From a virus, in IMG/VR virus record IMGVR_UViG_3300028909_000081, positions 1 to 20,469 of that record: a stretch of 20,469 nt of DNA. The stretch is one strand, 5' to 3'. The position numbers were made by a program, and so were the translations under genes. The stretch's first letter is position 1; the number at the start of each line of letters is the position of its first letter. Below the pieces are notes generated by a model, which was given only the letters and a program-made list of their open reading frames with translations, was not told where the DNA came from and did no database searches. Shown here in pieces: positions 2,656 through 20,399 of the stretch.

Positions 2656-3825
2656 ATGTCACAATTTCAACAGCAAGTAAATATTATGCCCGCACCAGGC
2701 GTGGCGGGCGATTTTTGCTCGGCCAACCCCCGCGCGTCGGTGTTGAACGGGCCTGGTGATCCTGTAGCAGGACCTAACGGCGTTACGGTAGGGTACTTCT
2801 GCTGGGGATCGCCGCAAGGTTACGACAACGTTTCAGGCGAAGTCGATCCGTGGTCGCAGGTTAACAATACCGGAGCTGGTACACCTCTCGGTTTTATCCA
2901 CCGCGAACAGCAAGCTCTGATTACTAAGTTCCTTGGATATAACACCCAGCTGGTACCTCCAGGATACCCTGTCACAGTGCATCAGGCTGGCGACTTCTGG
3001 GTAACTAATAACGGAACTACCGCCGTAACGGCAAACATGAAAGCCTACGCGAATAACGCTACAGGCCAGATTAGTTTTGCGGCTACAGGCTCTCCGCCAA
3101 CAGCAGCATCAGTAACTGCTTCTTTGGTAGCCAATAGCGCTGCGACATCAACCATTGCGGTTAATACAGCAACAACCAGCACTATTGCAGGTACCACACT
3201 CACTATGGGTGCGTTATCCAGCGGCGGTTTTGTTGCAGGTCAGACTCTGACTGGCACCGGTGTAGCTGCAGGTACAACGATCGTTGCGCAGTTGACAGGT
3301 ACCGCTGGCGGTTCTGCTGGCGCTACCTTCCAGGTAAATATTAGTCAGACAGTACCTAGTACCACGATTACTGCATCAGGCGGCATGTTTACCGCCGGCT
3401 CTGCATTGTCAGGTACGTTTGCTGTCGGGCAGACATTATCAGGAACGGGCGTATCGGCAGGAACAACCATCACTGCCTTTATTTCAGGTTCAGGCGGTCT
3501 GGGTACTTATGCTGTCAGTATCAGCCAAACCACCACATCAACAACCATTTCAGCATCAGGCGGTACTTTGGTTGTTTCTGCTGTTGGTTCCGGCGCGATC
3601 AGTATTAATGACACGATTACTGGCGGCACTATCGCCGCAAATACGCAGGTCACAGCACAGGTTTCTGGTGCTACAGGCGGCGTTGGCAGTTATCTGACTA
3701 ATACATCTACCGCATCAACAAGCGGTACTGTGACAGTCTTGGGCGCCACTGAAACTAAGTGGTTTGCGATGTCCCCCGGCGCGGTCGGTGAACTCATTAA
3801 GATGAGTTCATGGGCTATCGGCTAA
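2656..3825 (+). CDS. decoration-like head structural protein carrying three inserted repeat modules
   Basis: A 389-residue protein encoded directly before the major capsid gene, where DUF2184-type phages usually encode a small head decoration or cement-like protein. Residues 1-160 and the last 25 ([20 protein letters not shown]) look like the ordinary protein: an N-terminus with [10 protein letters not shown], then [18 protein letters not shown], and a beta-rich core ending in [11 protein letters not shown]. Between them, residues 181-363 are three tandem copies of a Gly/Thr-rich module that recurs in the sheath, baseplate J and fibre of this phage. That roughly doubles the expected length. 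AGGAGA lies just upstream of ATG 2656. A surface location on the capsid is inferred from gene order and the repeat content. No exact family name can be given with certainty. Confidence 0.7.
3196..3744 (+). repeat. three tandem Gly/Thr-rich modules in the head protein
   Basis: Copies at 3196-3384, 3385-3564 and 3565-3744 encode residues 181-243, 244-303 and 304-363. Each follows the plan: beta strand with 'T-x-x-A-x-S-G', then V-G-Q-T-L-(T/S)-G-T-G-V, A-G-T-T-I, a G-x-G-G turn, G-T-Y/x-x-V, and an S-Q-T-x-x-S-T-T-I end. The third copy is the most degenerate ([20 protein letters not shown]). Confidence 0.85.
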
Positions 3826-3851
3826 TCTGCTAATTTAAAAAAGGAAATAAC

Positions 3852-4907
3852 ATGAAACGAAATTTAGAATTAGCGATGCTCGAATCGCGGTACGGTATTG
3901 TGGGACCCGCTGGCGAATTGTTTGACTATTTGCCAGAAGGTGCTGCAGAACGTATGGCGTTGGATGCACAGCCCGCGTTGGTTACCGTCAGCAACTCCGG
4001 TATCCCCTCCTTCCTGGCTAACTACCTTGACCCTAACCTGGTCCGTGTTTTAGTCACCCCGAACCGCGCCGCCGCTATTTTGGGCGAAGCGAAAAAAGGC
4101 GACTGGACTATGGCTACAGCGATGTTCCCGACCATTGAAAACGGCGGTGAAGTATCGAGCTACGGCGACTACTCTGAAAACGGTACCGTCACAGCAAACG
4201 CCACCTTCCCGCAACGTCAATCGTACCATTATCAGACGATTACGCAATGGGGTGAAAAACAACTGGAAATGGCGGCTTTAGCTAAAATCGACTGGGCGGC
4301 GCGTTTAAATATTGCTTCTGCAATCGTGTTGGATAAATACCAGAACAATACTTATTTTTACGGCGTGCAAGGTTTGCAAAATTACGGGTTGTTAAATTCT
4401 CCTGATTTACTTCCTTCACTTGCGCCAGGTGTGAAAGCATACAACTCAGGAACGTCAGGGCCGTGGATTACCAACGGTGCAGTAACAGCGACAGCGAATG
4501 AAATCTACACAGATATTCAGTCGCTATTCAGTTTAGTTGTATCGCAATCCGGTGGCCTGGTTGAAATGGATTCGCCGATGACTTTAGCAATGTCACCAGC
4601 GTCCAGTGTTGCTTTAACCACCACTAATCAGTACAACGTCAACGTTGAAGATTTACTGAAAAAGAACTTCCCTAAACTGCGTATTGAAACTGCACAGCAG
4701 TATTTAAATACGTCAGCAGGAAATATGGTTCAGTTGATTGTTGATGAACTTGACGGGCAAAAAACCGGCTTCTGTGCATTCACTGAAAAAATGAGGGCAC
4801 ACAAGATGGTCGTTAAAATGTCTAGTTTCGAACAGAAAAAGTCGCAGGGAAGTTGGGGCGCTATTATTTTCCAACCTTTTGCAATCAGCTCGATGGTAGG
4901 CGTATAA
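3852..4907 (+). CDS. major capsid protein, DUF2184 family
   Basis: A 351-residue DUF2184-family major capsid protein with the HK97-type fold expected for this family; about 400-500 copies would form the shell. The family pattern is visible along the whole length: the N-terminal helix with MLESRYGIVG, the GIPSFLANYLDP segment (residues 49-60), VTPNRAAAILGE, the GDWTMATAMFP strand, QRQSYHYQTITQWGEKQLEMA (around 120-140), YFYGVQGLQNYGLLN, and a C-terminal IVDELDGQKTG and FQPFAISSMVGV end. AAAAAAGGAAATAAC directly before ATG 3852 is a strong ribosome binding site, as expected for the most abundant virion protein. An intrinsic terminator follows 29 bases after the stop. No delta domain or cleavage site is obvious by eye, though the first 30 residues may be removed if the DUF2213 protease is active. 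Confidence 0.92.
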   Translation: MKRNLELAMLESRYGIVGPAGELFDYLPEGAAERMALDAQPALVTVSNSGIPSFLANYLDPNLVRVLVTPNRAAAILGEAKKGDWTMATAMFPTIENGGEVSSYGDYSENGTVTANATFPQRQSYHYQTITQWGEKQLEMAALAKIDWAARLNIASAIVLDKYQNNTYFYGVQGLQNYGLLNSPDLLPSLAPGVKAYNSGTSGPWITNGAVTATANEIYTDIQSLFSLVVSQSGGLVEMDSPMTLAMSPASSVALTTTNQYNVNVEDLLKKNFPKLRIETAQQYLNTSAGNMVQLIVDELDGQKTGFCAFTEKMRAHKMVVKMSSFEQKKSQGSWGAIIFQPFAISSMVGV

Positions 4908-4936
4908 GTAGTATTTTGTAGTTTAATCGCAAGACG

Positions 4937-4970
4937 AAAAAGGCATTCTTATGAATGCCTTTTTATTTTA
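4937..4970 (+). terminator. rho-independent terminator after the major capsid gene
   Basis: A perfect 12-bp stem, 4937-4948 (AAAAAGGCATTC) pairing with 4953-4964 (GAATGCCTTTTT), closed by a TTAT loop and followed by ATTTTA. The A-tract and U-tract make it potentially bidirectional, although no gene on the other strand needs it. It is the only clear terminator in the window and divides head genes from connector genes, so downstream genes probably rely on read-through, since no convincing promoter was seen in 4965-4982. Confidence 0.9.
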
Positions 4971-4982
4971 TGGAGATTTAAA

Positions 4983-5351
4983 ATGGCCGAACTCCCCAAG
5001 CTATCATCCGGCAATACAGTCAGTGTTGGATGCAAGATTCCTAACGGGATCCACATGGATTTTCTGACACCTGGCAAACCTCTTCGCCGCGTTACTTTAC
5101 GCGGTACAAACGCATCGCGCGTTATAGGAGGTTTTGGTATTACTGAAAACGTACCGAAAGAATTTTTTGACGAGTGGATGCGGCTGAATGCAGAACACCC
5201 GGCGGTTGTGAATGGTTTTATTTTTTCAATGAATAAAACAAACGATGCCGAAGCCAGAGCAACTGAGATGAAAGCGGAAAAGAACGGGTTTGAACCTTTA
5301 GATCCTGATAAGCCTGGTAAAGACTTAAAAAAATTCACCGTGGCAGATTAA
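4983..5351 (+). CDS. small conserved phage protein between capsid and connector genes
   Basis: A 122-residue protein starting MAELPKLSSGNTVSVGCKIPNG. The N-terminal 50 residues look like a compact beta fold (TVSVGCKIPNGIHMDF, RRVTLRGTNA), and the rest is charged and helical with FDEWMRLNAEHPAV and a Lys/Asp-rich end. I know similar proteins only as uncharacterised neighbours of DUF2184 capsid and DUF4054 genes. TGGAGA at 4971-4976 precedes ATG 4983 by six bases. It is the first gene after the capsid terminator, 15 bases before the DUF4054 gene. A minor head or connector-associated role is inferred from position only; no enzymatic motif is visible. Confidence 0.6.
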   Translation: MAELPKLSSGNTVSVGCKIPNGIHMDFLTPGKPLRRVTLRGTNASRVIGGFGITENVPKEFFDEWMRLNAEHPAVVNGFIFSMNKTNDAEARATEMKAEKNGFEPLDPDKPGKDLKKFTVAD

Positions 5352-5366
5352 TTTAAAGGCGTAATA

Positions 5367-5789
5367 ATGTCAGTCGTATTTAACTACTCCACATGGGCAC
5401 TTCGTTTTCCGGCTCTTGCGGCGAACGTACCAGAAACGCTGGCGCAACTTTATTTTAATGAAGCCTGTCAATATTGTGATAACACCGGATGCAGTCTGGT
5501 TACAGATGACAGTATTGGCGGGCAACGCGAGACATTTTTAAATTTAATAACGGCGCACATAGCCACATTAAATTCAGGTACTGCGGCGCAACCTGCTACA
5601 GGCATCGTAGGCCGCATTAATAGTGCGACTGAAGGAACTGTTACCGTACAGCTTGAGAATAAATATCAGGAAGGTACAGCGCAGTGGTGGCAGCAAACGC
5701 AGTCGGGCTCTAGCTACTGGGCGATGTCGAATCAATATCGCAACGCATTGTACGTTGTAACCCGCCCACGTAATTTCTGGCCATCATGA
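5367..5789 (+). CDS. DUF4054 head-tail adaptor
   Basis: A 140-residue DUF4054-family protein, the usual adaptor (gp6/gp15-like) that docks on the portal ring in this phage group. Diagnostic stretches are FRFPALAANVPETLAQLYFNEA-like sequence at residues 12-33 (ALRFPALAANVPE), then the helix with FLNLITAHIATLN (about 57-69), GRINSATEGTVTV (about 80-93), and the Gln/Trp-rich end with AQWWQQTQSGSSYW and PRNFWPS. Length is normal for the family. AAAGGCG just upstream serves ATG 5367. Its stop overlaps the next start as ATGA, so the two are translationally coupled. Confidence 0.85.
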   Translation: MSVVFNYSTWALRFPALAANVPETLAQLYFNEACQYCDNTGCSLVTDDSIGGQRETFLNLITAHIATLNSGTAAQPATGIVGRINSATEGTVTVQLENKYQEGTAQWWQQTQSGSSYWAMSNQYRNALYVVTRPRNFWPS

Positions 5790-6343
5790 GCGCGTCATTT
5801 AAAAGTTCAGGAACACTGAACGCGAGATTAGCAGAGTTAGCGACGAATTTAAAGGCAGCCCAAAAAGTCCACGTAGGGTTTTTGGAATCAGCAACCTACG
5901 AAAATAAGCCTGTTGCTTACATTGCGGCGATACAGGAGTTCGGCGATCCAGGTTCGGGCATCCCTCCCCGACCTTTTTTCCGCACGATGATTGCGAATGA
6001 AAAAAACCATTGGGGGCAGGATATAGCGAAAAAGTTATTGGCTACTAATTACAATGCTAAACAGTCATTAGATCAGATGGGGCAGGAAATAAAAGCCGAA
6101 TTGCAGACATCGATTATCGATCTGGTCGCACCGCCCTTATCGCGCACAACAATTATGCTGCGCGCCATGCGCGCTGCAGACCCAACGTTAGGCGATAACG
6201 GAAACCCGATATCGTACGCGACAGTAAATGAAGCGCGTGCCAGGGTTGCGGCAGGCGAAAGCACAAATGGGGTATCAGAAAAACCACTGATAGATTCAGG
6301 GCACATGCTGAATAGCGTGGATTACGAGGTAGACCCGGAATGA
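5786..6343 (+). CDS. tail completion / HK97 gp10-like neck protein
   Basis: A 185-residue protein of the type annotated as neck, tail-completion or HK97 gp10-like. The key signature is VHVGFLESATY followed by YIAAIQEFG and IPPRPFFRTMI (about residues 28-70), shared by proteins that cap the head-proximal end of the tail. The C-terminus has PPLSRTTIMLRAM and ends with the typical PLIDSGHMLNSVDYEV. It overlaps the DUF4054 gene by four bases upstream and the next gene by four bases downstream (ATGA both times), fitting a tightly coupled connector cluster. Function is by family resemblance and position. Confidence 0.8.
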   Translation: MSASFKSSGTLNARLAELATNLKAAQKVHVGFLESATYENKPVAYIAAIQEFGDPGSGIPPRPFFRTMIANEKNHWGQDIAKKLLATNYNAKQSLDQMGQEIKAELQTSIIDLVAPPLSRTTIMLRAMRAADPTLGDNGNPISYATVNEARARVAAGESTNGVSEKPLIDSGHMLNSVDYEVDPE

Positions 6344-6723
6344 ACTTGCACAATATCGTAGCGCCAGTTATAGCCGCAATTAACCCGTGGCTTACCGCTT
6401 CTTATCAGCAGTCCACAACACCTACAATTGGCATCGATTTTACGCAGACACCAGGATATTTGCCGGCAGTAAATGTTCAGGTGCAAAAGCAACCGATTCA
6501 GTGGAAAGATTTACAGCAAGTTAGCGGACTGAATTTAGTCGGCGAAAAATGCGTGATGTATGTTAGCGGTAACTGGCAAGGCGTATCACGACCAGCCAGT
6601 AAAGGCGGCGATTTAGTTACGCTGCCGGATGGCACTGTCTGGCTGGTTATTATGCCACTTGAAAACTGGTATTCGACGGACGGATGGACAAAAGTAGCGT
6701 GCGTTTTGCAAAACGGGAGTTAA
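6340..6723 (+). CDS. probable head-closure (stopper-like) protein
   Basis: A 127-residue protein. After a short helix (residues 1-20) it looks like a small beta barrel: GVSRPASKGGDLVTLPDGTVWLV and EDW-like LENWYSTDGWTKVACVLQ resemble head-closure proteins, where a 'D-x-V-x-L-P-D-G-T...W-L-V' strand pair precedes a Trp-rich turn. The call rests on this and on its place between the tail-completion and tail-terminator genes. The start overlaps the previous stop (ATGA). I would not give an exact family. It could instead be a collar protein unique to this phage group. Confidence 0.55.
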   Translation: MNLHNIVAPVIAAINPWLTASYQQSTTPTIGIDFTQTPGYLPAVNVQVQKQPIQWKDLQQVSGLNLVGEKCVMYVSGNWQGVSRPASKGGDLVTLPDGTVWLVIMPLENWYSTDGWTKVACVLQNGS

Positions 6724-6726
6724 ATA

Positions 6727-7272
6727 GTGGTGACGGCGACGATTAGCATTACTGAAGCCGATCTGTTTCAGACTCTCGGCAATTTTTTAACTTACGTACT
6801 ACCCTCCGGGACGCCTGTCGTAAAAGCGCAGACAAACCGCGTGGCAGAACCAGCAAACACTAATTTTGTCACGATGACACCATCGTTACGACAACGTTTA
6901 GGATTTAACTGGACTGAATTTAGCGACGGGTACCCAAGTACAGCCTCAGTGCAAACAGATAACGCGCCTACTGACGTGTCAGTTCAGTTAGATATTCACG
7001 GTCCGCTGGCGGCCGATAATTTACAGATACTGACAACATTGTTCTGGTCAGGCTGGGGGTGTGATCAGTTCGCCACATCTGGATTCGATATTACACCGCT
7101 ATGGTGCAGCACTCCGGTTCAGGCACCTTTTTTAAATGCAGAACAGCAGATTGAAACGCGCTGGACTGTGGACTTTCATATGCAGGTAAACGCTGTTGTC
7201 ACAATCACCCAACAATTCGCTGCAGCACTGGACGTTGAACTGGTTTCTGTAGAAGCGGTGTATCACCCTTAA
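6727..7272 (+). CDS. tail terminator-like neck protein (LIC_12616 / gp12-like)
   Basis: A 181-residue protein resembling the phage neck-terminator (LIC_12616) group: a helix with ITEADLFQTLGNFL, then TPVVKAQTNRVAEP and FVTMTPSLRQRLGFN (residues 30-65), VQLDIHGPLAADNLQ, a Trp-rich stretch, and FLNAEQQIETRWTVDFHMQVN near residue 150. Such proteins cap the tail tube and join it to the head. The start is GTG: two GTG codons stand at 6727 and 6730, with GGGAG at 6715-6719 giving spacings of 7 and 10, so 6727 is preferred. The next gene, the sheath, starts 46 bases later; the gap holds its binding site TGGAGT and no gene. Confidence 0.72.
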   Translation: MVTATISITEADLFQTLGNFLTYVLPSGTPVVKAQTNRVAEPANTNFVTMTPSLRQRLGFNWTEFSDGYPSTASVQTDNAPTDVSVQLDIHGPLAADNLQILTTLFWSGWGCDQFATSGFDITPLWCSTPVQAPFLNAEQQIETRWTVDFHMQVNAVVTITQQFAAALDVELVSVEAVYHP

Positions 7273-7318
7273 TTTAATTTCACAGCTTGCTTTTAGCAGC
7301 TTTTATATGGAGTAACGC

Positions 7319-9256
7319 ATGAGTACAATACCAGCATCGGCCATTGTCCAGGTCAACCCCAGTGTTTTATCGGCCGGCGGTTCTGGCTTAGATTTATCCG
7401 GGCTATGTCTGGATAACGGCACTCGCACACCAATCGGAACAGTTCCTTCATTTCCTTCAGCACCCGCTGTCGGTGCATATTACGGATTAGCTTCAGTACA
7501 CTACGCTAACGCTCTTATATATTTCGCGGGTTTTCAAGGTTCGAACATTAAGCCTGGCGCATTATTGTTTGCGCAATACAACCAAAACGCCGTACCCGCA
7601 TATATCCGCGGCGGTGCAACAGCGGCTTTATCACTGACAGCGTTACAGGTTCTTAGCGGCACGTTAATCGTCACTGTAGAAGGCGTACAGAAAACGTCGG
7701 GGGCGATCACTTTATCTGCGGCTACCAGCCCCGCAAACGCTGCGACGATCATTACCACAGCATTCGGCGCGTACGACGGTGTTACCAGCACCGCGACAAC
7801 TATCGCTACAGGCACGACAACCAGCGTAACAGGCTCAATCACCGGCTATACCCTGACAGTGACTGCTGTCGGTTCAGGCGCTTTAGTTGTCGGCGGCGTA
7901 CTGTCTGGCACAGGCGTTACGACAGGTACAGCGATTACGGCACAACTTACTGGCACGACGGGAGGTATTGGCACTTATACTGTCAGCCTTAATCAGACAA
8001 CAACATCAACCACGATTACGCAATCATACGGGTTGATGACTGTTGCAGCGATGTCGTCAGGTACTCTGTATGTCGGATCAGTCATATCAGGAGGTACTAC
8101 TGCAGCCGGTACAACCATTACAGCTCTGGGCACCGGTACAGGTGCAGCAGGTACATATATTACGTCAGGCGGCGCGCAAACAGTATCTGCGACCACAATC
8201 AGTTCAGGTCCGCTCACCTGTACTTATGATAGCGTTTCCGGTAACTTCGTTTTAACCGGCGGCGCCCCCGGTGCAGCAGGTACGATTGGTTACTGTACCG
8301 GCACACTGGCTACTGCTTTGTCGATGACTTCGGCGACCGGGGCCGCATTGTCGCAAGGCGCGGTACCTGGAACACCTGCAGCCTTCATGGCGGGCATCGT
8401 CGCGCAGACAACTAACTGGGCAACTTTCTTTACCCTGTTCGATCCTGATAATGGTTACGGCAACGTGAATAAACAGGCGTTCGCTAACTGGGACGGCTTG
8501 CAAAATAGCGAATTCGCTTATGTTGCGTGGGATCTCGATATCACTCCGACGCAATCGAACGCAGCAACAAACAGTCTCGGCTATATTCTTAAAAATAACT
8601 CAACTTCGGGAACTATTTGCGTTTACGACCCAAATAACACCGGACTGGCAGCTTTTACTTCAGGTTCTATTGCATCGATCGATTTCACGCAGTTAAACGG
8701 ACGTTCGACACTGGCGTTTAAATCGCAGTCCGGATTTACGTCAACTGTCTCGTCACAGACTGTATCTTCTAATCTGATCGCTAACGGATACAATTTTTAC
8801 GGCTCTTACGCGACAGCCAATCAGGGTTTCCAGTTTTTTAATCCAGGCCAGATTTCAGGTCAGTTCCAGTGGGCGGATAGCTACGTTAATCAGATATGGA
8901 TGAATTCAGCGTTCCAGCTAGTGTTAATGACACTGCTGACCAGCGTGAAAGCTATTCCTTACAACTCGCAAGGTTACGCTTTAATTCGCGCAGCGTTAAG
9001 CACAGTGATTACGCAAGCGGGTAACTTCGGCGTATTTCAGCCAGGCGTTCAGTTATCTGCTTTGCAGATTGCCGAAGTCAATACGGCGGCAGGCACGCCG
9101 ATCGATGCGATTTTGTTTTCACAAGGGTATTATTTGCAGATTTTGCCTGCCACTGCGCAGGTGCGGGGGGCCCGCGGTTCTCCGCCGATGACTTTTTGGT
9201 ACATGGATGGCGGATCAGTACAAAGCATGAATTTAGCCTCAGTCGAAGCTCAATAA
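7319..9256 (+). CDS. contractile tail sheath protein, DUF3383, with two inserted modules
   Basis: A 645-residue DUF3383-family tail sheath, the contractile outer tube that drives injection. Family landmarks are the N-terminal [18 protein letters not shown], the [17 protein letters not shown] block, [36 protein letters not shown], the [15 protein letters not shown] segment and the C-terminal [18 protein letters not shown] with NLASVEAQ. Residues about 171-296 are not part of the usual protein: two Gly/Thr-rich modules split a small beta domain, whose halves ([17 protein letters not shown]...TTAFGAYDG and [14 protein letters not shown]...GTLATALSM) would otherwise be contiguous. Length exceeds what I expect for the family by about the size of the insert. 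TGGAGT precedes ATG 7319 by five bases; the tube gene follows 15 bases after the stop. Confidence 0.92.
7829..8206 (+). repeat. two Gly/Thr-rich modules inserted in the sheath
   Basis: 7829-8026 encodes residues 171-236 ([17 protein letters not shown]..., [30 protein letters not shown]) and 8027-8206 encodes residues 237-296 ([42 protein letters not shown]). The first copy is very close to the second head-protein copy over its C-terminal half: [16 protein letters not shown] against [16 protein letters not shown]. At DNA level the two are clearly diverged. Confidence 0.85.
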
Positions 9257-9271
9257 TAAAGGATATTCACC

Positions 9272-9700
9272 ATGAGCATTACTTCAGCAAACAGTACCCT
9301 TTATCTGGGCGTAACAAGTTTGTTTAACACCCCGCAACAAATGATAGGCTTCGCACAAGATGACGCCTATGAGGTTGACGCGGTAGATCCTGTCGAAGCC
9401 CTGATCGGCGTTGACGGAATTATGTCGACTGGCTGGGTGCCGCAGATTAAAATTATGCACGTCACCCTGCAACCGGATAGTGTGTCGAATGTCTTTTTCG
9501 AGGCGTGGTACGCATCGCAGGAAGCGCAACGTGAAATTTATCAGGCATTCGGTACGATATATCAGCCTGGCATCTCACGGGCATACGCGTTAACGAATGG
9601 AGTTCTGGCTAATTACACGCCTTTAGCTGCGGGTAAGAAAGTGCTGGCACCGCGCCGGTTTCAGATCAAATGGCAAACAATCTTAGGAGCACCTGCATAA
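9272..9700 (+). CDS. tail tube protein, DUF3277
   Basis: A 142-residue DUF3277-family protein, taken as the inner tail tube: gene order puts it directly after the sheath, and the family has the expected size. Visible landmarks are the beginning ITSANSTLYLGV, PQQMIGFAQDDAYEVDAV, the VDGIMSTGWVPQIKIMHVTL strand region (residues 48-67), SVSNVFFEAWYASQEA, and the closing PRRFQIKWQTILGAPA. AAAGGA at 9257-9262 lies ten bases before ATG 9272. The stop TAA shares its last base with the ATG of the chaperone gene at 9700. Confidence 0.88.
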   Translation: MSITSANSTLYLGVTSLFNTPQQMIGFAQDDAYEVDAVDPVEALIGVDGIMSTGWVPQIKIMHVTLQPDSVSNVFFEAWYASQEAQREIYQAFGTIYQPGISRAYALTNGVLANYTPLAAGKKVLAPRRFQIKWQTILGAPA

Positions 9701-10107
9701 TGCGTAAAACCGCAACCATTACGATCGCGGCGGAAGGACGGGATAAAGGCAAAGTATTTCAGCTGAAAGAATTGCCTGCTTCACAAGCTGAACGTTGGGC
9801 GATGAAAGTTTTTCTGGCTTTGGCTAAAAGTGGCGTCGATATACCGGAAGATGTCATGCAATCAGGTATGGCAGGGATCGCTGCCGTCGGGTTCAAAGCT
9901 TTAGCGGGTATGAATTACTATGATGCGGAACCGCTGATGGATGAGATGTTCCAGTGCGTGCAGGCCGTGCCAGACCCGGGTAAACCGGCGGTGCTTCGCA
10001 ATCTGATTGAAGATGACATCGAAGAAGTGCAAACCCGGTTGTTGCTACGTAAAGAGATTCTTCTGTTGCACGTAAATTTTTTGCCAGCCGCCGGAAACAC
10101 GCTGTAA
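9700..10107 (+). CDS. tail assembly chaperone, short (unshifted) form
   Basis: A 135-residue protein in the position of the tail assembly chaperones (lambda G, P2 E), between the tube and tape-measure genes. ATG 9700 overlaps the previous stop (TAATG), and AGGAG at 9685-9689 gives a ten-base spacing, so 9700 is preferred to the more upstream in-frame ATG at 9670. The protein begins with a beta segment (RKTATITIAAEGRDKGKVF), then LKELPASQAERWAMKVFLAL, a typical start for this class, followed by helices and an acidic stretch (LIEDDIEEVQTRLLLRK). A slippery heptamer near the 3' end allows an extended form. These proteins bind the tape measure during tail assembly and are not found in the mature virion in known systems. 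Confidence 0.82.
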   Translation: MRKTATITIAAEGRDKGKVFQLKELPASQAERWAMKVFLALAKSGVDIPEDVMQSGMAGIAAVGFKALAGMNYYDAEPLMDEMFQCVQAVPDPGKPAVLRNLIEDDIEEVQTRLLLRKEILLLHVNFLPAAGNTL

Positions 10108-10298
10108 GATTCGGCGGCATACCTGATCAGCGCCGTATTGATTATCTGAATGTCCCCCGTACGCTCGGGATGGTACTTTCGCATAAAATGGCGACGCTGG
10201 AACAATTAGATACGATTTACAGTGTTGAAGATGTGTACGATATGATCGAAATAATCATGGTAGATAACTACAACACGAATCTTGACAGAGAAGAATAA
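9700..10298 (+). CDS. tail assembly chaperone, -1 frameshifted long form
   Basis: Slippage by -1 at 10077-10083 would join the first 127 codons (to 10080) to an open frame that has no good start of its own and ends with TAA 10296-10298, giving 199 residues. The extension (ASRRKHAVRFGG, IDYLNVPRTLGMVLSHKMA, LEQLDTIYSVEDVYDMIEII) looks like a genuine small helical domain. Its stop overlaps the tape-measure ATG by one base (TAATG), exactly as gene T meets H in lambda-like arrangements. In that open frame the first stop upstream is 10050-10052, so translation can enter only by frameshift between 10053 and 10107, or from a poor internal ATG at 10170. Family knowledge: G/GT-type frameshifting is conserved among long-tailed phages. 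Confidence 0.8.
10077..10083 (+). promoter_or_regulatory. -1 programmed frameshift slippery heptamer
   Basis: T TTT TTG in the zero frame of the chaperone gene (AAT TTT TTG at 10075-10083), an exact X XXY YYZ heptamer. After a one-base backward slip both tRNAs can re-pair on TTT TTT, and reading continues with GCC AGC CGC. From memory this is the same heptamer used in the P2 E/E' tail gene. Confidence 0.82.
10087..10118 (+). promoter_or_regulatory. stem-loop downstream of the slippery site
   Basis: GCCGCCG (10087-10093) is perfectly complementary to CGGCGGC (10112-10118), giving a 7-bp all-GC stem; G94-T111 and A95-T110 can extend it. The loop spans the zero-frame stop at 10105-10107. The spacer from the heptamer is only three bases, shorter than the usual five to nine, so the lowest pairs may be open when the ribosome pauses. 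Confidence 0.65.
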
Positions 10299-12663: not shown

Positions 12664-12665
12664 CT

Positions 12666-12977
12666 ATGCAAACTATCCCGCTGATTGATGAATATGCACA
12701 AACGATCACGGTAGGGTTAGGCGGCCAGAATTGCACAATTAATTTATACCAGAAGTCGACCGGATTCTTTTGCGATCTGTATGTAGGCGGCACACTTATT
12801 GTGGGCGGCGTACTGTGCAATAACTGGACCAAAATAGTCCAGAATACCTATCTCGGTTTTCTGGGTGATCTGGCTTTTTACGATACGCAGGGAACAAATC
12901 CCCCAAGTAGTCCGGGACTCGGCGCGCGATATCTTCTTTATTATTTACAGGTATCTGATTTGAACGGGGCAGGTTGA
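12666..12977 (+). CDS. baseplate plug protein, Pam3 gp18-like
   Basis: A 103-residue protein resembling the small cyanophage Pam3 plug family (gp18; formerly a DUF), which closes the tube lumen at the hub. It has QTITVGLGGQNCTINLYQKSTGFFCDLYVGG (about residues 11-41) built from beta strands, VGGVLCNNWTKIVQN, then GDLAFYDTQGTNPPS and a C-terminal ARYLLYYLQVSD. These 'G-x-F-x-D-L-Y-V-x-G' and 'L-C-x-N' features and the size fit. It starts three bases after the previous stop with AGGA just upstream, and overlaps the hub gene by one base (TGATG). Confidence 0.75.
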   Translation: MQTIPLIDEYAQTITVGLGGQNCTINLYQKSTGFFCDLYVGGTLIVGGVLCNNWTKIVQNTYLGFLGDLAFYDTQGTNPPSSPGLGARYLLYYLQVSDLNGAG

Positions 12978-13867
12978 TGAGTTTCGTTAAACGTGTCATT
13001 GAAGTCACGCTCACATTAGGTACAGGCGATTTTGGAAACGGTCTTGGTAGTAGCGTAACGTTGTCAGGTTATCGTGTCCGGTGCGATTGTCAGATTCATG
13101 GCGGCGATGCTGGCGCCGCCGTACAGTTGCGTATATCCGGGGTAACGCTTCCGCTAATTAACCAGTTAACATGTCTTGGCCAAATTTTAGGCCAGTACAA
13201 AGGCGGTAATACAGTACGGGTTGCGGTCGGAAATAGCGGTTCAGCATTGACAACTATTTTTACAGGCTCGATTATCACCGCTTGGGGTGACTTTGCGTCG
13301 CCGCCCGATTCAGCATTGAATATTACCGCGATAGCCTATTTATGGCACGCAGTGTTGCCGGTGAACGCCTCAAGTTTTCCTGGTACAACGTCCATAAATA
13401 CGATATTTCAGGCTATCGTAGCAGGTATGAATAATGCGGTGCCTTCACTTAATCTGACTTATTCCAATCCGCAAAATATTGCTACGACACTGACTAATAT
13501 GTATCTTCCAGGGTCAGGCTTAGATCAGATCCGTGAATGCGCGGCGGCGGCAGGTGTAAATTATAAAATAGAATTAGGCGTATTGACGATATGGCCGGTG
13601 AATGGTTTTATCCCGAATATAGGGTTAATACCTATCATATCGCCTAGTAACGGTCTGGTTAGTTACCCTACTTTTTCACAACAGGGGGTTGATATAAAAA
13701 CTGTATTTTTACCGAATCTGAGTCAGGGCAACCGATTTACGGTAACTGACAGCGCATTAACACTGGCTAATAACACCTGGACCATTGCTTCTGCTGTACA
13801 TACGCTGGAAAGCGAAACGCCGGGCGGCGCGTGGTTCACAGTATTAAAGGGGATATGGGTTGGATGA
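12977..13867 (+). CDS. baseplate hub protein (gp27/gpD-like)
   Basis: A 296-residue protein between the plug and spike genes, the position of the trimeric hub (T4 gp27, P2 gpD, Mu gp44 functional class). The frame can begin at TTG 12974, but ATG 12977 overlapping the plug stop (TGATG) is the better start. The first 120 residues are beta-rich (IEVTLTLGTGDFG, VTLSGYRVRCDCQIHGGDAG, VRVAVGNSGSALTTIFTGSI), as for the first hub barrel. A middle segment (TTSINTIFQAIVAGMN) and the YLPGSGLDQIRECAAAAGV stretch followed by ELGVLTIWPV are typical of phage hub proteins. It overlaps the spike gene by eight bases. Confidence 0.72.
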   Translation: MSFVKRVIEVTLTLGTGDFGNGLGSSVTLSGYRVRCDCQIHGGDAGAAVQLRISGVTLPLINQLTCLGQILGQYKGGNTVRVAVGNSGSALTTIFTGSIITAWGDFASPPDSALNITAIAYLWHAVLPVNASSFPGTTSINTIFQAIVAGMNNAVPSLNLTYSNPQNIATTLTNMYLPGSGLDQIRECAAAAGVNYKIELGVLTIWPVNGFIPNIGLIPIISPSNGLVSYPTFSQQGVDIKTVFLPNLSQGNRFTVTDSALTLANNTWTIASAVHTLESETPGGAWFTVLKGIWVG

Positions 13868-14636
13868 TGATGCTTATCAGAGTACGGCGACTGCAGCTAA
13901 TATGCAGGGCGACTATAACGCGCTGATCTACACAATAACCCAAATACTAAATCGCAAACACACAGCAACATTAGTGCAGGTTGTTTCAGTCACTAATACG
14001 GGCACAGACGCCGCGGTTGGATTCGTTAGCGTACAGCCCCTAATTAATCAGACGGATGGATACGGTAACGCTATACCTCATTCTATTTTGAGTGGTGTGC
14101 CTTATTTCCGTATGCAGGGAGGGGCGAACGCAATAATTTTAGACCCACAAAAAGGCGATATCGGGCTGGCAGTTTTTGTTGAAAAAGACATCAGTAAGGT
14201 CGTGGCTAATAGCGCGTCAGCGTCATCCTCTACGGCAGGCACACCTAATAATCCGTTACTAAGCAACCCCGATTCGAACCGTCGGTTTTCCATGTCAGAT
14301 GGCGTGTATTTTGGCGGATTTTTGAATGGGATACCAACGCAATACGTTCAGTTCAGTGCGACCGGTATAACGCTGGTATCGCCAAATCTGATCGAGCTGC
14401 AGGCAACGGATATTAAATTAGTTGCACCTACTATAGAGCTTAACGCAACATCGTCGGTCACAGTGACGACACCTACATTTACGGTTAACGGTAACGCAGT
14501 GGTGACAGGCAGCGTGGCGGCGACTGGCGATGTAACAACAGCAGTAGGTGGGGGTCACAGTTTAACTACGCACCATCATCAGGTGGTTAACGTACAGACC
14601 GGCAGTTCAACTATCAACACAGGAACTACAGTTTAA
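13860..14636 (+). CDS. baseplate spike / membrane-piercing protein, Gp138-N family
   Basis: A 258-residue spike. The start is TTG 13860, chosen because no ATG occurs in frame until Met15 and AAAGGGGA at 13846-13853 is a strong, well-spaced binding site. Residues 35-140 match the Gp138 N-terminal OB-fold domain: LVQVVSVTNTG, GFVSVQPLINQTDGYGN, VPYFRMQGGANAIILDPQKG and DIGLAVFVEKDIS, then FSMSDGVYFGGFLNG. Residues about 165-235 are short strands repeating every 8-10 residues (ITLVSPNLIELQATDIKLV, TIELNATSSVTVTTPTFTV), a triangular beta-helix. The tip region has GHSLTTHHHQV, where a His-x-His could bind the metal ion known from spike tips. The trimer would sit below the hub and pierce the outer membrane. 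Confidence 0.87.
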   Translation: MDDDAYQSTATAANMQGDYNALIYTITQILNRKHTATLVQVVSVTNTGTDAAVGFVSVQPLINQTDGYGNAIPHSILSGVPYFRMQGGANAIILDPQKGDIGLAVFVEKDISKVVANSASASSSTAGTPNNPLLSNPDSNRRFSMSDGVYFGGFLNGIPTQYVQFSATGITLVSPNLIELQATDIKLVAPTIELNATSSVTVTTPTFTVNGNAVVTGSVAATGDVTTAVGGGHSLTTHHHQVVNVQTGSSTINTGTTV

Positions 14637-15073
14637 TGAACACATTATTTTTGCTGCCGTCGACCTGGGATTTAGCGCAAGATGCTTTCGGTAACATCGC
14701 AATGTCAACCGAACCTTACTCACTGGTGCAAGACGCGGCCAGTACCGTCAGGACATTCGCAGGCGAAGTTTATTATGATACGACGCAAGGACTGCCTTAT
14801 TTCACTCAGATTTTCGGTGTCACCCCTATACCCTATGAACTGATCCGCGCTAACGCTATTGCAGCAGCGAATACAACACCTGATATCGCTTCGACACAAC
14901 TGTTTTTTACCGGGCTTGTTAACCGCAGTTTATACGGTCAGCTTCAGGTGACGTCTGTAACCGGCGCAACAGCAGCTCTGGCTGTACCACTATCAGGCGG
15001 GCAAGGCGTACAGGGCGCGCAAACATTCACATTAGATGCATCCGTGTTAGGCGGCGGCGACATTTTAGGATGA
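14636..15073 (+). CDS. baseplate wedge protein, T4 gp25-like
   Basis: A 145-residue protein of the gp25/gpW-type wedge class, which starts sheath polymerisation at the baseplate. It begins with strands WDLAQDAFGNIAMS, then the helix SLVQDAASTVRTFAGEVYYDTTQGLPYFTQI (residues about 29-60), where the 'G-E-V-Y-Y-D-T-x-x-G-L-P-Y' pattern is the conserved core. YELIRANAIAAANTTPDIAS and a final beta segment follow. Length is normal. It overlaps the spike stop (TAATG) and the following gene start (ATGA). In comparable operons baseplate J comes next; here a different gene is placed between them. Confidence 0.85.
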   Translation: MNTLFLLPSTWDLAQDAFGNIAMSTEPYSLVQDAASTVRTFAGEVYYDTTQGLPYFTQIFGVTPIPYELIRANAIAAANTTPDIASTQLFFTGLVNRSLYGQLQVTSVTGATAALAVPLSGGQGVQGAQTFTLDASVLGGGDILG

Positions 15074-16167
15074 CTATGAAAAAAATTATCGTGTTTGTGC
15101 TGTTTCTGTCGGCGGGTGCACTGCTTTATTCGCAGACAACAGGATTTCCCTGGTCTGAAGGTCAGACAGTAACAGCGACATCCCTGAATAATGCTTTTAC
15201 TGCACGCGTAACTTATACCTCTGGCCCACTCTTAAAATACGGTGTGATGCTGGGAAACGGTTACGGCGACAGCCAGACGCTTAATAACTACGGTCTGAGT
15301 AGCTACGTACTAACATCTAACGGTCCTGGTGTACCGCCTTACTGGGCGCCGGGCGGCGGCGGGTCATTTACTTACCCAGGTGCCGGGATACCTAATTCGT
15401 CCGGATCTGCATGGCTTCCTTCTTACGCTACAACCGGAACAGGTAACGTTGTTTTATCTAACGGCGGCACTTTAGTCGCCCCTGCGCTGGGTATGCCAGC
15501 GTCAGGCGATATAACGAATCTGACAGGTACGTGCGCTGCTTGTAATATTAGCGGAAACGCAGCAACAACTACATTGGCCGCTGAAGCGACCGCTACAGCG
15601 GGCGGGACCACGAATACTATTTCCTACCAGACAGCGCCAGGTGTGACGGCCTATATCACGGCGCCGGTATCATCATCAACATTTTTAGAGTGGAACGGCA
15701 CATCTTTTATTTGGGGCACTTCACCAGGAGGCTTCACTAACCCGATGACGACGGCGGGCGATCTGATTTACGGCGGCGCCAGCGGCACCCCAACCAGATT
15801 ACCAACAGGGTCAGGCGTTCTTGTTGGCGGTACCACACCAAGCTACAGTTTAAATGTGCCCGGCTTAACGGCAGGCTACGCCACCTTAGCGGCTACAGCG
15901 GTTAATGTGTACGGCGGATCAGTCAGCACAAACAGCGTAACACTGACCAGTGGGCGTGCAGGCACATTTACCTGCACATCGGGGGGATCGATCACGATCA
16001 CAAACACGAATATATTATCAACGTCTAACGTTATCATCTCAACGAATACCCCAGGCGGTACTGTTTCATGGACGCCAAACATTAAAACGATTACCAGCGC
16101 GACGTCTTTTGTTGTTATTTGCGCTACCTCAGACACCAGTATTTATAATTACGTCATTTTGAATTAA
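15070..16167 (+). CDS. tail-fibre-like protein with N-terminal signal peptide
   Basis: A 365-residue protein inserted between gp25 and baseplate J genes. It opens with a clear Sec-type leader: two Lys after Met (MKK), a hydrophobic core IIVFVLFLSAGALLYSQ, and possible cleavage after LYS about residue 22. The mature part starts FPWSEGQTVTATSLNNAFTA, a common opening of phage fibre proteins, and continues with fibre motifs: LVAPALGMPASGDITNLTGT, NPMTTAGDLIYGGASGTPTR and SGVLVGGTTPSYS. The rest is Gly/Ser/Thr beta sequence with four cysteines (TCAAC, FTCTS, VICAT). ATG 15070 overlaps the gp25 stop, while ATG 15076 would give the classical MKKI start. A virion protein assembled in the cytoplasm should not need export, so either a periplasmic or envelope role, or a leader used as an anchor, is possible. 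Confidence 0.72.
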   Translation: MTMKKIIVFVLFLSAGALLYSQTTGFPWSEGQTVTATSLNNAFTARVTYTSGPLLKYGVMLGNGYGDSQTLNNYGLSSYVLTSNGPGVPPYWAPGGGGSFTYPGAGIPNSSGSAWLPSYATTGTGNVVLSNGGTLVAPALGMPASGDITNLTGTCAACNISGNAATTTLAAEATATAGGTTNTISYQTAPGVTAYITAPVSSSTFLEWNGTSFIWGTSPGGFTNPMTTAGDLIYGGASGTPTRLPTGSGVLVGGTTPSYSLNVPGLTAGYATLAATAVNVYGGSVSTNSVTLTSGRAGTFTCTSGGSITITNTNILSTSNVIISTNTPGGTVSWTPNIKTITSATSFVVICATSDTSIYNYVILN

Positions 16168-16200
16168 ATGGTACCAGGCTATTAATAATTAGGATTCTCA

Positions 16201-17613
16201 ATGTCGACAAACGTACCATTTCCAAGTATAGGCACGAACGGTTGGGTACCGCCAACTGAAGAAGCAATACTGACTGGCGTTCAGGCGGATTTAAACCAGG
16301 CTTTCGGCGGTAATCTTAATCCTGCACTGACATCGCCCCAAGGTCAGTTAGCGACATCGCTGACAGCGATTATTGGCGACGTGAATAGTCAGTTTTTGAC
16401 GCTGATGAATAATGTCGACCCTGCGTTTTCTTCCGGGCGGATGCAAGACGCTATCGGGCGCATTTATTTTATGACCCGTATCGCTGCGCAGGCCACTGTC
16501 GTTACCTGCACCTGCATAGGCGCTGTCGGGGCAATTATACCTATTAACGCTACGGCGATCGATCAGGCAGGCAATATCTATCTGGCCACAGCAGGCGGAA
16601 CAATCCCAACAGGCGGCAGTATATCGCTGACGTTTGAATGCAGTACCGCCGGACCTATCGCCTGCCCTATCGGCTATTTAAGTTCTATTTACAAAACGGT
16701 ACCTGGCTGGAACAGCATTTACAACCCGGCTGCAGGTGTAGTCGGGTACAACACGGAGACACCCCAGGCATTCGAATTGCGCCGCGAACAATCTGTCGCG
16801 ATTAATGCGCAAGGTAGTCTGCCGGCGGTTGTGTCGGCCTTATTCGCCGTAGCTGGCGTGGAAGATGTTTACGTTATTCAGAACCCGCTACCCATTGCGA
16901 GCGGCGCTGTTGTTACAGGCAGTATTTCAGGCACAACGTTCACTGTTACTGCAGTAGCATCCGGTACTGTTGCGGTCAATCAGATGCTGACAGGAAGCGG
17001 TATTACGCAAGGCACTTATATCACATCGCTGGGTACAGGCACAGGTAGTACGGGAACATACGCGCTGAATTTTTCACAGACTGTCGGCAGTGAATCCATC
17101 ACCTGTGCAGTAGGCGGTGTTCAGTTGCTGCCCAACTCAATTTATGCGTCTGTATATGGCGGCGTTGCACAAGCAATCGGTAACGCCTTGTGGGCTAACG
17201 TCAGTCCCGGGTGTAACTACAACGGAAATACGACCGTGACAGTGTATGACACCGCTTCAGGTTATAACCCGCCCTACCCGTCTTATCAGATTGCTTTTGA
17301 AACACCGGCGGCCACACCAATACTGTTTAGTATTTCTATGCAGTTAAATAGTAATACGCCTTCTAACGCTATCGCTTTAGTTCAGGCTGCGGTAATTCAG
17401 TCTTTTGCAGGGCAAGACGGCGGCACTAAGGCGCGTATTGGCAGTTCTCTTTATTCCAGCAGATACTACGCTAATATTGCCGCGCTCGGTTCGTGGGCGG
17501 TTATTTACTCAATAGAATTAGGCGTTACAGCACCGACGCTAAGTTCGGTGTTGATGGCAGCGAATCAGGTTCCGACTTTATCAGCAACGAATATCGCCGT
17601 AGTTTTCTCTTAA
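16201..17613 (+). CDS. baseplate J-like wedge protein with one inserted module
   Basis: A 470-residue Baseplate_J-family protein, part of the wedge ring linking hub and fibres. Landmarks are the N-terminal [21 protein letters not shown] and [16 protein letters not shown] (family start), [57 protein letters not shown], then [19 protein letters not shown], the strand [20 protein letters not shown] and a [17 protein letters not shown] end. Residues 234-301 are an extra Gly/Thr-rich module placed between [12 protein letters not shown] and [12 protein letters not shown], which are normally adjacent in this family. ATG 16201 is preceded by TTAGGA about eight bases upstream, and the 33-base gap before it holds no gene. 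Confidence 0.92.
16900..17103 (+). repeat. Gly/Thr-rich module inserted in baseplate J
   Basis: Residues 234-301: [20 protein letters not shown], then [37 protein letters not shown] and SESIT. Same order of motifs as in the head, sheath and fibre copies. Flanks rejoin into normal baseplate J sequence. Confidence 0.85.
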
Positions 17614-17614
17614 T

Positions 17615-19111
17615 ATGCAAAATTTAGAACAAACAATTCTTGCTCAGTACGCCAATTCGCCAACACTAAATAGTGTGGTTCAGGCATGGAATTCTGAGTT
17701 AGACCCAACAACTAATATCAATAATTTTTACAATAACGTATGGAATATTGAAACGGCGACCGGCTACGGTCTGCAGGTGTGGGGGCGTATCGTTAATATC
17801 GGTAACACGGTGAGTTTGCCTGCGGGTATGCCATTTGGTTTTGAAGAAGCAACAACAGCCAGCGCGGCGGAATTCGGGCAGTCCAATTTCTATAACGGAA
17901 CGCAAACAACCAGTAATTACGTGTTGTCAGATCCAGTGTTCAGGACGCTTATTCTGGCTAAAGCGCTCATGAATATCAGCACATCGACGTCATCTGCCTA
18001 CAACCAGATTTTAATGGCGTTATTCCCCGGCAGGGGAAACGCTTACGTAACAAATTTAGGTAACATGCAGGCCAGGCTGACTTTCGAATTTACGCTGCAG
18101 CCTTACGAATTAGCGATTATTAAGCAGACAGGAGCGATCACACCACCGACCGGCGTTCTGTTTGATGTTATGCAGGTTCAGTTGCCTTTTGCTTTTGGTT
18201 TTGCTGAAGCCGATGGCGGGTCAGCTTTTCCTGCCGTCGTTATTAATTCTATTTACGCCGCGACGTGGCAGGGTAACCAATTACAGTACACAACACCCCG
18301 GACTAACTATCTGGACAATGCAGCATTAAATGTGCTGACACAATGTACGGCCACCTATAATAATGCAACGTCACCAGACGGTACAACTGATGCTACGTTA
18401 ATCACACTAAGCGCAGCAGTTACCGCGCCAGTTTGCGGATGGACTTCAGCAGGCACACCTTTTTCGTCCACTAATTTTTCAGGGTTAGCAACTACTTTTT
18501 CTGTTTATGTTTTGGTTGGCACACTAACCTGCACGGTTGATCTGTTCATTAATGACGGCAGCGGAACGCTGCAGGCTAACAGTACGGTAAATATTGCCAC
18601 AGGCGCGATTACGAATATAGCTGCCGGGGGTGTTGTAGTTACTCCTTTAGCGGGCGGTTGGTATTGCTTCGCCATAACGGCTACGTTTGCCGGCGGCTCT
18701 GCAAACGGTTACGAATGCTATGTCACGCCAGACGCCAGTTCAGCTAACGATAACCAGACATTTTGGATTGCTAATTCACAGTTTGAATCGGGGGCAGGGC
18801 AGACCAGTTTCATACCGACATCAACCACGTCTGGCGCTACGGTCACAGATTATACGCCCGGCGTGGATAACAGCACAGTCACTTTTAGTGTCGCACCTGC
18901 AGCCACAGTCGCCCTGACATGGAATGGTACAGCACAAAGTAACATCGTTAGCGGCGACAGCGCGACAGCACAAAACGCGCTGTTTGGAACCGGAAACGGT
19001 ACTACAACAACATTCAACATGACGAATAATTTGCCAATTACGATATATTTAAGCGGGTTAGGCAGCGCTACAGGATTTAATACCGGCACACTTTTTGAAG
19101 GGTACTCTTAA
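17615..19111 (+). CDS. DUF2612-type baseplate protein fused to a lectin-like adhesin region
   Basis: A 498-residue protein following baseplate J, the place of the gpI/DUF2612 wedge-to-fibre protein. Residues 1-200 are that domain: [73 protein letters not shown], and [15 protein letters not shown]. The ordinary protein would end soon after [12 protein letters not shown]. Here it continues with a region typical of phage adhesins: [23 protein letters not shown], a jelly-roll-like run, [14 protein letters not shown], and [18 protein letters not shown], a carbohydrate-binding/lectin-like pattern. It ends with [15 protein letters not shown] and [16 protein letters not shown] 17615 follows the J stop by one base and lacks a visible ribosome binding site, so re-initiation is likely. 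Confidence 0.78.
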
Positions 19112-19112
19112 T

Positions 19113-20399
19113 ATGCAAGTAGCAAATGTTCCGGCAGGGTTCCCGATTCCCTTCGCTAATAACGCGGGAGCCGGATTTATACGAACAATCCCGACAGCTT
19201 CTCAGATAGGCATCACAGCAGGGGCGGCATCGCTTACTGACGGGTTCCCCCCTCTGACATTTAACCCTACAGCCGCTGGCGGCGTACCTCCTTTCGGTCA
19301 GGATTTTAACGGCATACTGAAGGAAATAACTGCGGCGATTCAAGGTTTGCAGGCCGGGTATATATACGGTTTTAGCCCTACATTTTGCGAAGCGATCGGA
19401 GGCTATCCAAACGGCGCAATTATCGCAAATGCTGCGCGTAATACGTTCTGGGTATCGACAGCGGATAACAATTTAACGAATCCAGACGCAGCTAACGCCA
19501 CCTTTACAGGGTACATTACCGGCACAATTCTGACTGTTACGGCTATCAGTACAGGTACTGTCGCTATCGGACAACTTTTGTCTGGCACCGGCGTAACTTT
19601 AAATACGCAGATTGTTAGTTTTGGCACAGGATCTGGCGGTACAGGAACGTACAACGTACAGACGACGCAAACCAATAGCAGCACGACGATTACGGCTGCT
19701 GGTGCATCGAACTGGCAGTATTTCATTCAGACACTAGGTAACTTAAGTGTTGAGGCTTTTTCGGCCGTTAGCGCCGCTATCAGCGGTAGTTTTTCCGCAT
19801 CAGCATTAAACGCATCGGGTACGGCGTTAGGTATTACCAACGTATCAGGATCTGGTACGGCGTGGTACAAATCTTTTTTCGGCGTATCAGGATCGGCCAT
19901 TTTTCTGTTGTCATCTTCAGTACAGGCATCCCAGGCTGCGGCAAATGCGGCGTCATACACTTCTTACCGGCCCTTCCAGTGGAATGCCAGTACAGGTGCA
20001 GTGACAATAGATGCCACGGGAGCGGGAGCTTATTTTGGCGGGGCGGCCTTCGCGGCGACAGCAGCATCAAATACGGCGACAACACAGCTGGCAACAACGG
20101 CTTTTGCTAATCCTGGCAATTCCATCAGCGCAAACGGCTACGTAAAACTGCCTAGCGGGATTATTTTTCAGTGGACGCAAGGGGCTAATCAGGCAGTTGC
20201 AGGCAGCCAGGTTGTTAACTTCCCGATCACATTCCCCAACGCAGTGCTGAAAGCGTGCGTATCGAGCTTATATTCATCCGCTTCTCAGTACGGGACTTAC
20301 GGATTCTATTCATCAGCAGTTGGCTCAGCAGCCGTGATACGGAGCAATTCAGATAACGGTAATGGTGTCACCCCGGTTATTTTCGCCATCGGGTATTAA
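19113..20399 (+). CDS. tail fibre protein with one inserted module
   Basis: A 428-residue fibre. ATG 19113 is chosen: it follows the previous stop by one base, GAAGGG lies ten bases upstream, and the next gene starts with a matching N-terminus. Residues 1-130 are the virion-attachment part ([77 protein letters not shown]), a common prophage fibre N-terminus. Residues 130-197 are the Gly/Thr-rich module, after which family sequence resumes with [11 protein letters not shown]. The remainder is Ala/Ser/Gly-rich shaft and a C-terminal domain with [20 protein letters not shown], a fibre-tip domain pattern (gp53/fibre-C type) likely to bind the receptor. No clear terminator follows. Confidence 0.85.
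19500..19703 (+). repeat. Gly/Thr-rich module inserted in the tail fibre
   Basis: Residues 130-197: [56 protein letters not shown] and SSTTITAAG. It separates [14 protein letters not shown] from SNWQYF, which are normally close together in this fibre family. Confidence 0.85.

Follow-up and report, generated by a model that had tools for sequence, protein, structure and literature searches.

A Gly/Thr-rich module, very probably an accessory insert, in head, sheath, baseplate and fibre proteins of a contractile-tailed phage

The DNA analysed here is a 20,469-base IMG/VR virus record (IMGVR_UViG_3300028909_000081, positions 1 to 20,469; this whole stretch is called the window below) that spans a portion of the structural genes of a phage with a contractile tail. 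This block encodes a minor head protein of the XM1 gp53 family, a major head protein, a tail sheath protein (DUF3383), a tape measure protein with a lysozyme domain, a baseplate J protein, a DUF2612 protein and a tail fibre protein, and its structural gene order is the same as in Pantoea phage PA-1 (OQ847583), the annotated relative used for comparison. Four of these proteins carry seven copies of a Gly/Thr-rich module of about 64–72 residues, listed here with their host proteins; the bit scores of the modules come from a profile built exclusively from copies external to the window:

2656..3825, plus strand: minor head (decoration) protein, 389 aa, XM1 gp53 family (PF23982, E 8.1e-22; phrog_2122, E 5.1e-40)
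3154..3375, plus strand: head module 1 (58.7 bits)
3370..3555, plus strand: head module 2 (59.2 bits)
3550..3738, plus strand: head module 3, the most diverged copy (38.1 bits)
7319..9256, plus strand: tail sheath protein, 645 aa, DUF3383 family (PF11863, E 9.5e-109; phrog_205, E 4.4e-71)
7808..8023, plus strand: sheath module 1 (72.0 bits)
8018..8206, plus strand: sheath module 2 (46.8 bits)
16201..17613, plus strand: baseplate J/wedge protein, 470 aa (PF04865, E 1.7e-6; phrog_6, E 2e-52)
16894..17106, plus strand: baseplate J module, at site 1 of two alternative sites in the family (79.2 bits)
19113..20399, plus strand: tail fibre protein (phrog_12796, E 3e-30; PF21882 at the C-terminus, E 2.6e-12)
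19485..19697, plus strand: fibre module (75.6 bits)

The minor head protein matches its family over residues 4–168 and continues with its three modules, a solved relative of the baseplate J protein is the baseplate wedge protein gp16 (7kh1_A5), and the tail fibre reading frame starts with the ATG at 19113, an upstream TTG at 19095 being also possible. A 57-kb record with near-identical copies of the window genes (G001) contains an eighth copy, outside the window, in a second fibre paralogue; the total is eight because the two fibre paralogues (445 and 315 aa) carry one copy each, and all eight fall between 7.9 and 25.7 kb of 57.2 kb. The number of copies per record ranges from 1 to 8 in 20 records searched, all of which had been picked as module carriers.

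The external profile comprises 308 of 316 distinct copies, the 8 from the window and its near-identical contigs having been removed. Scored against this profile, the seven window copies in the four proteins reach 38.1–79.2 bits, while the best of 3,500 residue shuffles (500 for each of the 7 copies) scores 11.0 bits. Elsewhere in the six reading frames of the window (segments of at least 40 aa) nothing scores above 5 bits. These scores uphold the preliminary description of this DNA, which had noticed seven copies of one module in four virion proteins at positions within a few residues of those listed, and a chance or convergent likeness of Gly/Thr-rich segments is rejected, since shuffles of the same composition stay far below the real copies. 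The shared order of motifs that had been described is loose in the third head and the second sheath copy, both of which are devoid of S-G-x-G-V. The pairwise identity of the seven copies amounts to 32–57% at the protein level and 42–60% at the DNA level, and at the latter values a recent DNA duplication as the source of the seven copies is unsupported. No Pfam family covers the module in the four window proteins (E up to 1) and none was matched that would identify it in ten further module proteins either, so that a known Pfam domain can be discarded as its identity. The module corresponds to an unnamed stretch inside two PHROG families, phrog_21413 (unknown function; about positions 394–477) and phrog_38233 (tail fiber protein; about positions 552–636), which are long whole-protein families (595 and 896 positions) in which it is neither delimited nor named; some of the viruses behind these PHROGs therefore carry the module. 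All four window proteins match phrog_21413 (E 8.5e-17 to 9.3e-13) and phrog_38233 (E 5.6e-13 to 2.2e-6) through the module, and phrog_21413 matches each of the seven copies singly.

Comparison with relatives indicates that the seven segments are very probably accessory inserts in virion proteins. The sheath differs from that of PA-1 (645 versus 492 aa, 211 identities over 492 aligned residues) by a single clean insertion at window residues 152–297, and among the 181 phage records that match the window sheath, none has a single match spanning 80% of it. In the baseplate J protein (470 versus 410 aa in PA-1) the size difference sits in the module region, and the 15 relatives listed, out of 562 records, cover 82–86% of it in two or three pieces. 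Removal of residues 147–359 from the head protein raises its alignment score against PA-1 from 119.5 to 230, and in this alignment the insert falls into a loop close to the C-terminus. In the fibre, alignment is confined to the N-terminal flank, where the 12 matches listed, out of 134 records, stop at residue 130–150, and the far C-terminus (residues 346–429) matches PF21882; judged by this alignment of one flank, the fibre module is likely an insertion as well. The earlier view that host-family sequence flanks the modules on both sides thus holds for head, sheath and baseplate J, as seen with PA-1 and other relatives, and for the N-terminal side in the fibre. Relatives that lack the module or carry it elsewhere exist for the sheath and for baseplate J, and PA-1 lacks the segments in head, sheath and baseplate J; family-wide presence of the same residues, which the preliminary description had named as the result that would speak against insertion, did not appear. 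The module as an integral part of the host folds is accordingly rejected for head, sheath and baseplate J.

The sheath family offers a graded series of this kind. IMG/VR was searched with an alignment of the sheath core only, its query rows derived from 17 module-bearing sheaths; at least 578 of 599 pattern matches were relatives, and the best 80 were used, which provides no measure of prevalence. Six of the 80 are cut at a contig end, leaving 74 full-length sheaths, of which 26 contain no module, 13 contain one, 28 two and 7 three (22, 12, 18 and 4 of the 56 groups formed at 90% identity). The median sheath length rises accordingly from 510.5 to 583, 658 and 726 aa for zero to three copies, with a slope of 72.8 aa for each added copy (r 0.99). 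In a quick sheath-core tree (79 of the 80 rows) the copy number changes 17 times, compared with a mean of 36.0 and a minimum of 31 in 200 shuffles, and these changes together with the length ladder imply that copies were gained and lost in one slot. A module occurs in another open reading frame (ORF) of the fetched stretch at 15 of the 26 loci with a module-less sheath and at 39 of the 48 remaining loci. As an observation in its own right, the ORF just upstream of the sheath (mostly about 240–270 aa) holds one module in many of the relatives L216–L294, and the window ORF adjoining the sheath upstream (6727–7272, 181 aa), which is without a module, is its presumed, not established, counterpart. 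In baseplate J the position itself varies. From 12 records, 12 stretches around module-bearing frames were picked by frame length and position; 10 of them encode a baseplate J homologue and the other two encode fibre-type proteins. Two of the ten homologues (L300 and L301) carry the module at site 1, the site used in the window, and in the other eight this site is empty, its flanks being joined by 7–12 residues, and the module instead follows window residue 441–443, a second site close to the C-terminus.

The fold of the module was predicted from an alignment (A2) of 91 rows, consisting of the window baseplate copy and 90 of 113 dereplicated copies; 23 mostly diverged copies, including the first head copy of the window, were left out by hand, so that invariance in A2 is not a census. 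AlphaFold2 models the module alone with strands only (pLDDT 94.7, pTM 0.81), and the module is thus predicted to be a self-folding all-beta domain, a small barrel if judged by its nearest structural matches. The best match in the PDB is chain 1 of the Arthrobacter phage Bridgette structure 8eci (Foldseek E 0.079, TM 0.72; Z 7.3, rmsd 2.1, 64 aligned residues, 28% identity), a Z score below 8 that may reflect a common arrangement. Translation factors and F1-ATPase follow (Z 5.2–7.0, below the clear level of the tool). These nearest solved structures we take to be barrels. A stretch of the tail tube of Acinetobacter phage Mystique (9n71 chain A, residues 103–179) is folded like the module (Z 5.9, rmsd 2.4, 63 aligned residues) and is perhaps a separate case of the same idea. 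Of the four host proteins the sheath was modelled whole, with moderate confidence (pLDDT 74.6, pTM 0.62); the model aligns with the solved sheaths of Pa193, E217 and XM1, and its match to the solved module-free sheath 9b42 (Z 25.9, rmsd 6.0, 454 residues, 23% identity) speaks, for this protein, against segments that are integral to the fold, the outcome that the preliminary description had proposed to look for by structure prediction.

The composition of the module is unusual. Charged residues make up 2.5% of the distinct copies and 12.9% of the remaining sequence of their host proteins (302 ORFs without dereplication), 73 of the 316 distinct copies contain no charged residue at all, and Gly, Thr, Ser and Ala account for 60% of the module compared with 38% of that remaining sequence. 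The tyrosine of the G-T-Y motif is kept in 309 of the 316 distinct copies.

As the preliminary description had proposed, a profile was built from the copies and searched, and it detected copies across many uncultivated phage loci. The host census covers the window and 201 loci (L006–L206), on which the profile itself was iterated, and yields 492 copies in 307 ORFs. None of the 492 lies on the minus strand, partly by construction as the loci were oriented to the match, and 362 of them are distinct when short flanks are included. The ORFs form 46 host clusters by module-masked BLAST (a few being short fragments) and 167 proteins at 90% identity. The hosts among ten representatives include a minor head protein, a lambda-D-type head decoration protein, an SU10-type adaptor, a neck terminator, a tail collar protein, a major tail protein, a head protein (phrog_1912) and a virion structural protein (phrog_3287). 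Five of the ten (L014, L202, L198, L034 and L011) match no Pfam family; L011 matches no PHROG except those of the module, and L202 matches one weak tail-fibre PHROG in addition. Further representatives are tail fibres (L106, L103 and L088), a virion structural protein (L112) and a capsid protein recognised by PF25209 (L099), while L097, L105, L111 and L060 have PHROG matches only to those of the module and L111, L093, L109, L106 and L112 match no Pfam family. At least eleven virion host families are recognisable, many of the 46 clusters being unclassified, and promiscuous insertion into unrelated virion proteins is therefore observed across these clusters. A comparison of the module model with predicted viral structures gives 16 matching proteins with E of 0.001 or less, one of them an HK97-type major capsid protein and another a P22 gp10-like protein.

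In IMG/VR the module is widespread, with at least 426 of 599 matches of a pattern scan encoding it. A tblastn search of 50,697 annotated phage records with the module consensus returned 4 weak matches at E up to 10, an undercount with the low-complexity filter switched on, and the baseplate copy alone found no match in the phage records, possibly owing to the same filter. Scans of genome contigs revealed no relative with the fibre copy as query and 18 loci with the consensus. Six genomes from these 18 loci, chosen as holding a copy, were used to check bacterial chromosomes. Spread within them is rejected: of the 13 matches, 12 are confined to a single contig in each genome, and the last is weak (E 3.9e-4). 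The isolate genome of Rhodovarius crocodyli CCP-6 has 4 copies on a single contig, a candidate prophage. Two proteins of metagenome-assembled bacteria carry the module, an RHS-repeat protein (L098, 2615–7939) and a Big_1 protein (L095, 2–2797), and the module is perhaps present in cell-surface proteins too, unless these are phage pieces or mis-binned. Furthermore, two collagen-repeat proteins recorded for the giant virus Indivirus ILV1 match the module model at 56% and 32% identity, which may be due to transfer or mis-assembly.

For the history of the copies a quick tree was built from 316 of the 492, leaving out duplicates and copies below 56 residues or 40 bits; with about 64 columns and untested branch support, it is used for broad counts only. 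On this tree the host label changes 27 times (263 copies, ten labels), as opposed to a mean of 151.6 and a minimum of 140 in 200 shuffles, so that most insertions are old and have been passed on together with their host protein. For all 17 first sheath copies the closest copy in a different host is a first head copy, and for 22 of the 32 first head copies it is a first sheath copy; a transfer of the first module, perhaps in tandem form, between the head and sheath genes is likely.

Published structures suggest where the modules would sit. The description of phage XM1 (PMC10457771) places gp53 as surface trimers at the three-fold and quasi-three-fold axes of the capsid and assigns trimerisation mainly to residues 95–160; in our mapping by sequence alignment, the head insert of the window would fall in this trimer-making half. 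If an XM1-like T=7 geometry is assumed, three modules per decoration subunit would amount to over a thousand copies per head. The sheath insert aligns near residues 150–159 of the E217 sheath, for which a domain A is described that is missing in the smaller pyocin sheath (PMC10329688), and the insertion site would lie in an E217-type domain A and on the outside. The XM1 sheath itself contains an insertion domain, which may be host-derived according to its authors (PMC10457771), so that, on that account, domain acquisition in a sheath has a precedent. Taken from these XM1 and E217 descriptions, the modules are probably displayed on the outside of the particle.

We propose that the module is a self-folding beta domain that would have been inserted into loops of pre-existing virion proteins as an exchangeable accessory of tailed-phage virions. 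It may have multiplied in tandem at some sites, probably moved one or more times between the genes for head decoration and sheath, and from then on would for the most part have followed each host protein by descent, while copies continued to be gained and lost. Displayed outside on head, sheath, baseplate and fibre, it may make many weak, non-electrostatic contacts with surfaces or polymers such as the cell envelope, glycans or matrix, and would work like the Ig-like domains of other phages by means of a different sequence family. Display with weak adhesion is suggested because the module is dispensable, variable in dose, found on a range of particle parts, predicted to fold on its own and uncharged, in analogy with Ig-like domains. 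Weak adhesion taken by itself is a tentative proposal that we consider quite possible, and the statement as a whole, that of an inserted, displayed and weakly adhesive beta domain, is likewise offered tentatively, as an explanation with a serious but not a dominant claim. Several points weigh against it. The case for adhesion draws solely on the kind of domain and its composition, and with two profiles no solved relative was found by sequence, the best chains (E 0.27 and 0.37) being ones that we take as unrelated to the module. The second head copies have a second sheath copy as nearest copy in 14 of 29 cases and the reverse is true in only 3 of 16, a weak head–sheath link. Moreover, baseplate J domain III dimerises between wedges in XM1 (PMC10457771), and because site 1 falls in this domain in our mapping, the baseplate J copy may be partly buried.

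The main rival regards the modules as cement that would bridge neighbouring subunits, decoration to decoration or sheath to sheath, and so stabilise the particle. Bridgette is described with dimeric capsid cement proteins (PMC13033339), and its 8eci chain 1, the best solved fold match of the module, may be this cement protein, a further point against the adhesive proposal; the head copies are also mapped to the half of gp53 that makes the XM1 trimer. However, 26 of 74 full-length sheaths manage without the module, it also occurs in collar, neck and fibre proteins, whose geometry differs, and the identity of chain 1 as cement is deduced, with a Z score that may mean no more than a common arrangement. 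We consider cementing unlikely, though far from negligible. A nearly neutral or selfish insert, that is a well-behaved domain tolerated in loops and spread by recombination without a function of its own, would agree with the permissive look of gain and loss in one slot and of alternative sites; the long inheritance with the host protein argues against it, as does the G-T-Y tyrosine, whose conservation despite large divergence indicates selection, though maybe for folding only, and we regard this explanation as improbable. A shield, in which an uncharged Thr/Gly-rich coat would lower unwanted sticking, protease attack or recognition, would account for the depleted charge, the high Thr/Gly content and the presence on many particle parts, but the module also resides in fibres, which should stick, making such a role slightly less probable again. 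Finally, the high content of Gly, Thr, Ser and Ala (60%) could be taken to mean that the segments resemble each other by chance or convergence or are integral to each fold; with shuffles at no more than 11.0 bits against 38–79, relatives without the segments and a confident fold prediction, this has virtually no probability left. The inserted, possibly adhesive accessory domain remains our preferred explanation.

Ig-like domains on phage virions are promiscuous insertions, and they are the closest kind to which the module can be compared. Both are small beta domains that occur in many unrelated virion proteins, vary in copy number and are missing in relatives, but the module is nearly uncharged and has no Ig match in Pfam (four window proteins, E up to 1; ten further module proteins, E up to 0.01), in keeping with the earlier impression that it does not resemble a classical Ig domain. 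Among the 50 structural matches listed, and thus within the folds these cover, no entry has Ig in its title; in the L095 protein, Big_1 domains adjoin the modules. Chain 1 of Bridgette 8eci (124 aa) is its best fold match among solved structures, but it is a separate chain and not an insert, and it gives no sequence match to the family profile at E up to 10. The likeness to translation-factor domain II and to the N-terminal barrel of F1-ATPase concerns the overall arrangement over 59–71 residues, at 6–20% identity and with no shared function known, and is probably a common arrangement only. The shuffling of fragments among phage proteins is the same general phenomenon as the domain mosaicism described in PMC10684548, which, in the part available to us, stresses fibres, spikes, endolysins and polymerases, its main text containing neither the word sheath nor the word decoration. 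A literature search, with most subscription papers out of reach, recognised no description of the module family, of its presence in sheath and neck proteins or of the copy-number ladder, and four short motif strings of the module did not occur in the literature searched; as evidence of absence this is weak. Phage virions with promiscuous accessory domains are known as a kind, and this family, its sheath and neck presence and the ladder would be a new variant within it.

Two further features of the window deserve mention. Between a small gene (14636–15073) and baseplate J lies an ORF of 365 aa (15070–16167) whose start resembles a signal peptide; its K1-lyase C-terminal match is weak (E 8.6e-4, under the Pfam cut-off). 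PA-1 has no gene at this place. The DUF2612 protein (17615–19111) has a C-terminal extension of about 300 residues that is missing in PA-1 (498 versus 195 aa) and over which no Pfam family is matched.

The module is a widespread but unnamed virion domain, frequent among the IMG/VR matches and nearly absent from the annotated phage records searched, and a named profile would aid annotation because clustering can join unrelated proteins through the module alone. As the sheath ladder and the two baseplate J sites provide natural relatives with and without it, its function is directly testable. A bolder and rather unlikely reading is that one family forms a generic, tunable layer over entire particles of many environmental phages, a second display system independent of Ig-like domains, little noticed because the annotated phage records searched hold almost none of it; copy number per slot (0–3 in the sheath) would then set the dose, and, as head, sheath, baseplate, neck and fibre all bear the same domain, its copies may make homotypic contacts, either inside one virion or from virion to virion, or may all bind a single polymer of the environment. 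If the module is adhesive, another family would join the Ig-like domains in decorating phage virions, and the decoration would take in most components of the particle, the sheath included.

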